Source of the DNA: Sorex araneus
Lineage: Eukaryota > Chordata > Mammalia > Eulipotyphla > Soricidae
Length of the DNA: 64,000 nt
Direction: 5' to 3'
Assembly: GCF_027595985.1 (NCBI RefSeq)
Contig: NC_073304.1
Span: 44,823,637 to 44,887,636 of the forward strand
Part shown: positions 3,952-7,512 of the stretch, in pieces
Position numbering within the stretch: position 1 is the first letter of the stretch
Layout of the letters: each line of letters begins with the position of its first letter
Notes under the pieces: generated by a model
The model's database searches: none
Told to the model about the DNA's origin: nothing
What the model saw: the letters and a program-made list of their open reading frames with translations, nothing else
Translations under genes and position numbers: made by a program

Positions 3952-3994
<43 letters not shown>

Positions 3995-4045
3995 CTCGCT
4001 CTCTCTTGCTCTCGCTCTCACTCTTGCTCTCGCTCTCTCTCCTCA
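3952..4045 (+). repeat. (CT)n microsatellite with CGCT/TGCT interruptions
   Basis: Pure CT units at the left, then a decayed right part in which GCTCTCGCTCTC units recur, suggesting a derived higher-order unit. Confidence 0.95.
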
Positions 4046-4438: not shown

Positions 4439-4452
4439 TAAAATGGCCTTTA
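4439..4452 (+). repeat. Target-site duplication, left copy (TRA2A retrocopy)
   Basis: TAAAATGGCCTTTA here is repeated exactly at 7499-7512, immediately after the A-run that ends the TRA2A retrocopy. This pair sets both ends of the insertion. Confidence 0.92.
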
Positions 4453-4654
4453 GGTAGGCACCGTTTTGTTAGAGACCGAGATCCAGTGGGAGTGGAGGAA
4501 CAGGGCCATAGCTGCCGGCTCTTCCCTCCTCCCCACAGTCCAGTCAGTGGTTGATTAGGCTGTGGGCCCTCATGCCAAGACTGGTCTCTTATTGAGTTCT
4601 GGGGAATGCCTGGCCAACATGAGTGATCTCGAGGAGAACAACATCAAGGGTAGA

Positions 4655-5599
4655 GTTAATGATCGAGAAGAAATTGAAGTTTTTTTTTTCCCAAGAATGT
4701 GGAAGATAAATCAAGATAAAAGAAGGCTAATGAGGGCCCCTCCATTCCTGAATGCCCATGATCCTGGAGGCCAGCTAACTACTTTTGGCACCCAGTGGCT
4801 TCTTGCAGAAATGCCTCTAGACTGTGAACTAAGCTACAGCCCCATGCCGCTCCAGGAGAGGAAAGGTTTTTCTCTTGGCCTTTTTTTTTTCACTGGCAGC
4901 GGTGTGGCAACCACCACCTTATAAGGCCCACTAAACAGAGGTACGAGCTTGCAATGATGCGATTTCTGGCAGAAATTTCTCTGGACTTAATTACTAAAAT
5001 ACCAGAAATCCAAAACCACACGGCCGCGCAACTTCATATGCTCTTCATTCTCAGCAATGTAAAACAAATTATCAAATGATGCTTTTCGGCATGTCTGATT
5101 GTTGGGGGAAAATTCCAAATAATAATAGTGAGTTTTCTGTTGAAATATTGAATGTAATCAAAGTAAAGAGAAAGTAAAGTGAAAATTATCAGCTACACAG
5201 CCGGGGGGTGGAAGTGGGAGGGGGAGGTATACTGGGGTTCTTGGTGGTGGAACATGTGCACTGGTGAAGGAATGGGTTTTTGATCATTGTATGACTGAGA
5301 CTTAAGCCTGAAAGCTTTATAACTTTTCACTCGGTGATTCAATAAAAAGTTAAAAAAAAATTTTTAAATAATAGGCTAATGAAAAGTATTAAAGATCAGA
5401 AAATTATAATTGAATGGGGGAAAAATGGAACAGAAGATTGGTCAGAAAGAAGCACTTGAATATTTTTAAGGCTATTTTCAATTGTTTGAATTCGGGAAGA
5501 ATACAAGAAGTATGAAAAATGAAAAAAATAAAGAATGAGGAGAACAAGAAAGCAAGAATGAAGTAGAATTGAAAGAATCTGGAAGAATGAATGGGTCCT
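4655..5599 (+). other. Probable TRA2A poison exon inside the retrocopy, interrupted by a retroposon
   Basis: Sequence at 4655-4733 and 5383-5599 (about 296 nt once the insertion is removed) sits exactly at the junction between TRA2A codons 12 and 13, a known exon boundary from family knowledge. It is purine-rich with many GAA/AGAA units, has several in-frame stops and ends GGGTCCTAG. TRA2 genes carry a stop-containing, GAA-rich exon at this place that TRA2 protein itself activates. I infer that the copied mRNA included that exon; I could not align it to a reference. Confidence 0.6.
4734..5372 (+). mobile_element. L1-tailed retroposon inserted in the TRA2A retrocopy
   Basis: Flanked by the 10-bp duplication AGGCTAATGA at 4724-4733 and 5373-5382. 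It contains one diverged copy of the GC-rich 5' module (GACTGTGAACTAAGC near 4825) found twice in the element at 21522-22533, then the shared body and the tail ...GTGATTCAATAAAAAG plus A-run. No open frame of note. It inserted after the TRA2A retrocopy. Confidence 0.85.
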
Positions 5600-6808
5600 A
5601 GGAGTCTCGCTCTCAGTCAAAATCTCCACCTAGAACACCTTCTCGTGTAAAATTGGAGAGCAGGTCAGGATCTCATAGTTCTTCGATGGTTTTCAAACAC
5701 TCTGAATCCCATTCTCAATCAAGATCAAAATCCAGGTCAAGGTCAAGGAGTCATTCTCATAGACGTGACACTGGATCCAGATTCCATTCTCATTGTCATA
5801 GAAGACAATCTCCAAGTAAGTCATATACACCAGAATACTGGTATCAAAGGAGCTGAAGTCATTCTCTGATGTCTAACTGGAGGAGACATACAGGCAGCAG
5901 GGCAAACCCAGATCCTCACACCTGTCTTGGAGTATTTGGCCTCAGTTTATATACCACAGAGAAAGATCTTCGGGAAACATTTTCTCGATATGTACCATTG
6001 AGTGGGGTCAATGTGGTTTATGATCATTGAACTGGATGATCACGAGGATTTGCTTTTGTTTATTTTGAGAGGATTGATGACTCAATCCTATGGAAAGGCT
6101 ATGGAAGGCTATGGAAAGGGCCAATGGAATGGAGCTGGATGACAGAATTTGTGTCAATTATTCTATCTCCAAAAGAGCACACACACCTACACCAGGCATT
6201 TACATGGGCAGACCAACTCAGAGTGATGGTGAAGGTAGTGGATGCAGTAGTGGAGGTGGAGGAGGTTGTAGGCATTGAGAATCATACTATGTTAGTGGAT
6301 ATGATCATGAATATGACAGATACAAAGATTATGACTACCAGTACAGAAGATCACTTTCTCCTTATGGTAGTTGATATAGATCATGATCAAGATCTTGTTC
6401 CTAAAGCCCAAGATGGTATTGATAAACAGAATGGTTGCAGTTGAGGACATCCTTTACTCTTGATTTTCTTTACTTTTAATTCTGGATTTCCCCAAGCTTT
6501 TAGTCATTCCTGTTCCTCAAAAAAGAACTCTTGGAAAAATGTTGGTTTATTTAGCATCTACACTTTGTTTGTTGTACTGGTGTTTTCCACCCCTTTTATT
6601 GCACTCTTAAAGATGTAATTGTTATCATTTTGAGTGATTAAACATCTCAAGTAAAAAAGAAACTCCTAGTGTTATGTTTTGCGAAAATTTTTTTTCTTTG
6701 CTTTTTCAGAAAATTAACTCCTGGCTAATCAGATGAAGAAAGAAATGATCTTTTTAAAGCTTCTGTTATGTTAAATATTGTAATAGGCATTGTATTCGAG
6801 ATATGCAT

Positions 6809-7019
6809 TTAAGCATTCCTTTTTTTTTTTTTTTTTTTGCTTTTTATGGGTCACACCTGGCGATGCACAGGGGTTATTCCTGGCTCTGCACTCAGGAATT
6901 GCTCCTGGCTGTGCTCAGGGGACTATATGGGATGCTGGGAATCGAACCCGGGTCGGCCGCGTGCAAGGCAAACGCCCTACCCGCTGTGCTATTGCTCCAG
7001 CCCCTTAAGCATTCCTTTT
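6809..7019 (-). repeat. SINE-A with target-site duplications, inside the TRA2A retrocopy 3' UTR
   Basis: Young minus-strand copy (about 6824-7004) with an 18-T tract, flanked by TTAAGCATTCCTTTT at 6809-6823 and 7005-7019. The B box complement GGAATCGAACCC is perfect. Confidence 0.95.
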
Positions 7020-7498
7020 ATAACTTTCTTTTGAGAAAGTTAGTAACACATATAGTAGTTCAGTCAGGTCAACTTTGTCTGGAGTGGTACAGAGCAGTGA
7101 GATAGTTGAGTATAAAAAGTTTGAAGCTATAGAAGAAAAGGCTTCATTTCTTTTGATGAATGGAATTTTTTAGCCCTACAAATCAAGCTGTTTTTTTAGA
7201 GATGAAAAGTGTGTGGACTCCTACAAACATTTTGTATTTAAAATACATCTGTTAAAACTTACAAACTTAAAGTGTGATTTTTGTGTTGGCTTTTTTGAAG
7301 TATTTAAGCATTCCTTTAATCGGTGAAGGACAACCCTTATTTATTACCTATCATAATTACATACTTTGCTGCTTGAAATTTTGGTTTAGGGGACAGTGGT
7401 TTAAGTTTAAGCAGGCTGTTGTATAATATGAATCCTTGGAAATATGTATGGGAAAAGTAGTCTCTTTTTAAATAAAAGTTAATTTCTTTGAAAAAAAA

Positions 7499-7512
7499 TA
7501 AAATGGCCTTTA
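7499..7512 (+). repeat. Target-site duplication, right copy (TRA2A retrocopy)
   Basis: Exact partner of 4439-4452, directly following the retrocopy's A-run. Confidence 0.92.

Follow-up and report, generated by a model that had tools for sequence, protein, structure and literature searches.

The TRA2A copy at 4453-7498

The window analysed here, a 64,000-nt stretch of contig C3 of the 2.4-Gb Sorex araneus genome, contains a processed copy of TRA2A at positions 4453-7498. The copy is bounded by an exact 14-nt target-site duplication (TAAAATGGCCTTTA) at 4439-4452 and 7499-7512. A CT-rich microsatellite at 3955-4041 precedes the copy by approximately 400 nt. The SINEs and other repeats of the window look typical of shrews.

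The copy reads on the forward strand. A 5' UTR (4453-4618), which aligns to parental exon 1 on contig C1, is followed by an ATG at 4619 and the first 12 codons (MSDLEENNIKGR; 4619-4654), ending at the position where the parent has its GTGAGT donor. Exon 1 of the copy (4453-4654) aligns to the parental exon at ~83%. The remaining coding sequence (5602-6422) is intronless and can be aligned to the readable parental exons one block after another. Not counting the stops in the segment described below, it has three in-frame stops (all within 5602-6085), as well as an insertion of ~19 nt (17 + 2 nt) at 6086-6104 that shifts the frame. The 3' UTR (6423-7490), assigned by alignment to the parental last exon, is interrupted by a SINE and carries AATAAA at 7471. 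A run of eight A at 7491-7498 forms the A-tail. The parental last exon matches window positions 6409-7494 with 89% identity, with the alignment ending inside the A-tail at 7494.

Eight readable exon blocks that lie apart in the parent are consecutive in the copy once the poison exon and the two repeats that arrived later are set aside; the exon 3 joint is judged via a sister copy on contig C12. A target-site duplication, intron loss, a polyA signal with A-tail and a disabled frame thus identify the element as a retrocopy. An earlier note on this DNA had proposed a full-length TRA2A retrocopy; the duplications, AATAAA, A-tail and lack of readable parental introns confirm this.

A PDB search with the coding part of the copy returned the TRA2B RRM as top match. 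The assignment to TRA2A rather than TRA2B is based on the mouse primers printed in PMC3240583: the coding-exon primer Tra2aB matches 18/20 letters at 5692-5711, and the C12 copy contains the Tra2a exon-1/exon-3 junction primer exactly. The 5' UTR primer Tra2aF counts against the overall reading of the copy, as its best ungapped place in the window has 6 mismatches and is not at the expected position, while its local alignment within exon 1 of the copy spans only 12 letters.

Parent gene and sister copies

A genome search with exon 1 and the first part of the adjoining segment found three places: the copy itself, C1 (83%, over query 2-204 only) and C12 (80%, over query 9-203 only). The coding part gave 11 matches, consisting of the copy, the C12 locus, five pieces on C1 spread over ~12 kb, two pieces on contig C2 near 270.06 Mb and two weak C2 pieces near 292.31 Mb. 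The latter (72-77%) probably represent TRA2B. The C1 locus is the intron-containing parent, with later exons showing splice-site-like flanks up to the 3' UTR.

The C12 locus (G000:C12:110389569-110390581, minus strand) is a second retrocopy of the same parent, likewise intronless from 5' UTR to 3' UTR. In contrast to the copy in the window, it lacks the poison exon: its exon 1 runs straight into exon 3, and its reading begins MSDL*ENNFEGRESRSQSKS.... Hence, both isoforms have been retroposed. The C12 frame is open except for two internal stops, and divergence from the parent is ~1% (CDS 1.0%, 7/702; 3' UTR 1.2%, 10/856), indicating a recent origin. An older C2 retrocopy (G000:C2 near 270059801-270060822) aligns only from the equivalent of window position 5771, beyond the poison exon, and has a ~390-nt interruption.

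An extra segment between exon 1 and exon 3

The copy carries 298 nt of extra sequence (4655-4733 plus 5383-5601) that starts exactly at the end of exon 1 and ends with TCCTAG before GAGTCTC, where exon 3 (GAGTCTCGCTC) begins. Parental exon 1 ends GGCAGA/GTGAGT, placing the donor after codon 12. The earlier location of the segment between codons 12 and 13, at an exon boundary, is hence correct, and an intron splitting codon 13, considered at one stage, was dropped. The size put forward previously, ~296 nt ending at 5599, requires revision: the 5' part is as described, while the segment is 298 nt long and ends at 5601.

Reading on in frame from exon 1, a stop is first reached with the TGA at 5457-5459, which leaves 142 nt to the end of the exon. 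Stops located 50-55 nt or more upstream of an exon junction elicit NMD. As the distance found here exceeds this threshold, the template had a premature stop of the poison-exon type (>55 nt before the exon junction, in the frame of this copy) and would have been subject to NMD in the usual way. The description of the segment as GAA-rich and stop-containing likewise holds. It contains 32 GAA compared to 20.7 ± 2.6 in dinucleotide shuffles (0/500 reach 32) and 17 AGAA compared to 9.2 ± 2.3 (1/500 reach 17), while GAAGAA is unremarkable (3 versus 1.4, a count reached in 79/500). The best contiguous 298-nt stretch in the window has 14 AGAA, none having 17, and overlaps the extra segment itself.

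Comparison with the mouse Tra2a poison exon

According to Grellscheid et al. (2011; PMC3240583), the exon is 306 nt long in mouse, with 48% of its nucleotides conserved in all vertebrates, and contains many Tra2-beta sites, the core of which is AGAA. As the corresponding stretch of the parental shrew locus reads N, the identity of the segment was determined against mouse letters rather than the shrew parent. The primers printed in PMC3240583 provide 92 distinct exon letters in three stretches, which stand in for a shrew or human alignment.

All three stretches match in order. In the 5' part (4655-4733, forward strand), primers match 22/26 letters at 4656-4681, 25/25 at 4691-4715 and 27/27 at 4707-4733, the latter two together covering 43/43 distinct letters. 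In the 3' part (5383-5601, forward strand), which contains the TGA at 5457-5459, an internal primer matches 22/23 at 5438-5460. Overall, 87/92 mouse letters agree (22/26 + 43/43 + 22/23, i.e. 5 mismatches). No decay rate can be derived from these five differences, as species divergence and decay are mixed. As controls, eleven primers for other genes, three of them for Tra2b/Sfrs10, all have at least 5 mismatches anywhere in the window, and the two flanking Tra2a intron primers have at least 7 at their best places across it.

The length of the segment is close to that of the mouse exon (298 versus 306 nt). The distance from exon start to primer end is 61 nt here compared to 58 nt in mouse, as calculated from amplicon sizes; a T10 run at 4680-4689 is unlike mouse, and this region is 3 nt longer than its mouse counterpart. 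When the two exon ends of the copy are put together, the mouse exon-1/exon-3 junction primer differs from them at 3/20 letters, none of which is among its 7 exon 3 letters. Furthermore, the mouse Tra2b poison-isoform primer has GTTAATG directly after exon 1, the same start as the segment, so that the exon 1 joint agrees with that of the paralogue. For the other 206 of the 298 nt (including 5383-5437 and 5461-5601), support comes from position, composition, length and the exact exon 3 joint.

Three 15-17-mers and their complements, taken from parts of the segment beyond the mouse primers, were not found in the open-licence PMC literature. An exact scan of viral and genome contig collections with a poison-exon 25-mer gave 0 matches, as expected for a mammalian exon. 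Comparison of the segment with readable parental flanks yielded five shared 14-mers (two overlapping), all short T-rich or purine-rich words.

The earlier proposal that the retrocopy derives from the poison-exon isoform is therefore upheld by the three ordered mouse stretches, the exact junction and a sister copy without the segment. On this comparison, the locus is almost certainly a full-length TRA2A retrocopy made from a poison-exon mRNA, pseudogenised and later split by a repeat.

Later insertions and decay

The two parts of the segment are separated by a 649-nt dispersed repeat with an A-rich 3' end (4734-5382, forward strand). The 10-bp stretch AGGCTAATGA at 4724-4733 is repeated at 5373-5382, at the end of the insert. 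Further copies of the insert occur within the window, and its first 265 bases match at least 39 other genome places at 87-90%, with 40 of 6085 candidates scored. A fixed 5' end of the insert was considered, given that 35 of the 39 matches begin at query 278-284, and was rejected, since alignments must start where the insert starts, whatever the copies do beyond. The SINE in the 3' UTR (6824-7004) is probably on the minus strand, judging from its poly-T start, and is flanked by a 15-bp duplication (6809-6823 and 7005-7019). Numerous similar copies are present in the window, with identities of up to 91%.

Divergence from the readable parent (K2P) is 0.117 for the CDS (711 sites) and 0.091 for the 3' UTR (856 sites); non-CpG divergence is 0.085 (1507 sites), and 29/60 parental CpG positions are changed. 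Parental exon ends are off by one or two bases at some joins, which should affect divergence little, and the 1-2-nt gaps at 5732, 6219, 6342 and 6409 are either artefactual or uncertain. The stops, the frameshift and the 8.5% non-CpG divergence indicate that the copy is a pseudogene. Mammalian substitution rates are ~2-4e-9 per site per year. The non-CpG divergence of 0.085, part of which belongs to the parental branch, would very roughly place the insertion at ~20-40 My ago at most.

Across the CDS and 3' UTR there are 30 sites where the C3 and C2 copies both differ from the parent and the C12 copy. At 22 of these (window 5693-7474) the two share the same letter, with 3/22 at parental CpG positions. 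A hand estimate from the 149 and 128 differing sites predicts ~12 coincident differences. The excess suggests the parent changed after copying, in which case the copies may have kept TRA2A letters of an older state in their coding part and 3' UTR. Part of the excess could also stem from an ancestry shared by the copies or from rates that vary among sites. The earlier suggestion that the copy may freeze an ancient state is hinted at for these parts and stays conjectural for the poison exon, whose parental counterpart reads N.

Alternative readings of the segment and the copy

The segment could instead derive from unspliced intron 1, through partial retention or cryptic splice sites. The T10CCCAAG at 4680-4695 does resemble a 3' splice site; this assignment was dropped, as the sequences flanking the T-run match mouse poison-exon primers, and the second of these ends 58 nt past the exon 1 end in mouse mRNA according to amplicon sizes. 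An intronic origin is further contradicted by the start of the segment, which follows exon 1 without the parental GTGAGT donor sequence, and by the flanking-intron primers, which match no better than with 7 mismatches. We consider it extremely unlikely. An unrelated repeat or insertion that landed at the exon boundary by chance and happens to be GAA-rich has a certain precedent in the 649-nt insert, which did land inside the segment. However, the segment ends show no target duplication (the longest word repeated near them is 5 nt), neither its 5' nor its 3' part has another copy in the window, and a foreign sequence would hardly match 3/3 mouse poison-exon stretches, one of them 43/43. The likelihood of such an accident is negligible.

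As a third alternative, the copy could be a functional retrogene or give rise to a putative regulatory RNA, such as a decoy for TRA2 acting via its 17 AGAA sites. The persistence of these 17 motifs, corresponding to the Tra2-beta core site in PMC3240583, is in keeping with such a role. The open reading frame is not intact, being disabled by in-frame stops and a frameshift; 29/60 parental CpG positions have changed, the CDS is more diverged than the 3' UTR (0.117 versus 0.091), and a 649-nt repeat sits within the poison exon. A functional role thus appears very improbable, although the copy might be transcribed, and the preferred reading remains that of a pseudogene of the poison-exon mRNA.

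Proposed origin of the copy

In the template, the segment linked exon 1 to exon 3; the molecule was devoid of the readable downstream introns, ended in polyA and extended far into the 5' UTR. In the model we propose, TRA2A pre-mRNA in an ancestral germline would have been spliced with inclusion of the autoregulatory poison exon. The resulting polyadenylated NMD-type mRNA would then have been reverse-transcribed and inserted, yielding a processed pseudogene in which the poison exon is frozen between exons 1 and 3. Afterwards, a dispersed repeat entered the poison exon and a SINE the 3' UTR. LINE-1 was presumably the inserting machinery, as the duplication begins with TAAAA and the copy has an A-tail. 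We infer a germline origin, probably in testis.

The earlier note had regarded poison-exon mRNAs as normally scarce, which would make such a template unusual. This argument loses weight, because inclusion of the Tra2a poison exon is described as especially strong in mouse testis (PMC3240583), and a retrocopy is passed on only if it arises in the germline. Once inserted, the exon can no longer act as a switch: as stated in PMC8201931, processed pseudogenes lack introns and hence cannot trigger junction-dependent NMD, and the intronless copy would escape it even if transcribed.

Relation to known systems and implications

The copy shares with LINE-1-mediated processed pseudogenes the target-site duplication, A-tail, polyA signal, lack of readable parental introns and decay. 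It differs from the usual examples in that its template was a poison-exon (NMD-type) isoform and not the coding isoform. In their 2006 'Genomic fossils' work, Shemesh et al. reportedly treated processed pseudogenes of alternative splice forms as transcript fossils. The present copy likewise preserves a non-canonical isoform, in this case one with the poison exon through which a splicing factor regulates itself. Retrocopies of alternative isoforms are a known kind; here the mechanism is ordinary and the template unusually informative.

With the mouse Tra2a poison exon (PMC3240583), the copy shares the position between exons 1 and 3, the sequence wherever mouse letters can be read, a high number of AGAA motifs and an in-frame stop. 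In contrast to the mouse exon, it is 298 nt long, has 3 additional nt around the T-run and is split by a later repeat; it also lacks flanking introns, and hence alternative splicing is lost. No precedent for a poison-exon retrocopy and no report of a TRA2A pseudogene or retrocopy was found in the open-licence PMC literature searched. In the available portion of PMC11288931, poison exon and retrocopy both occur, unconnected, while that of PMC5408686 makes no mention of poison exons.

Isoforms marked for decay are expected to leave little genomic trace. The full-length retrocopy indicates that the ancestral germline contained intact poison-exon TRA2A mRNA that was open to reverse transcription, which fits the high testis inclusion reported for mouse (PMC3240583). 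More speculatively, SR-type poison-exon isoforms abundant in testis might be a recurrent template for germline retroposition, with mammalian genomes holding a readable fossil record of them. This generalisation is doubtful at present; under it, the copy would be one entry, and its NMD-free exon could be used as a reference without constraint when studying ultraconserved exons, or act as a TRA2-binding decoy RNA if transcribed. The retrocopy also provides a version of this highly conserved regulatory exon that is apparently free of selection; given the parental exon sequence, its decay could be set against the decay seen in the coding exons.
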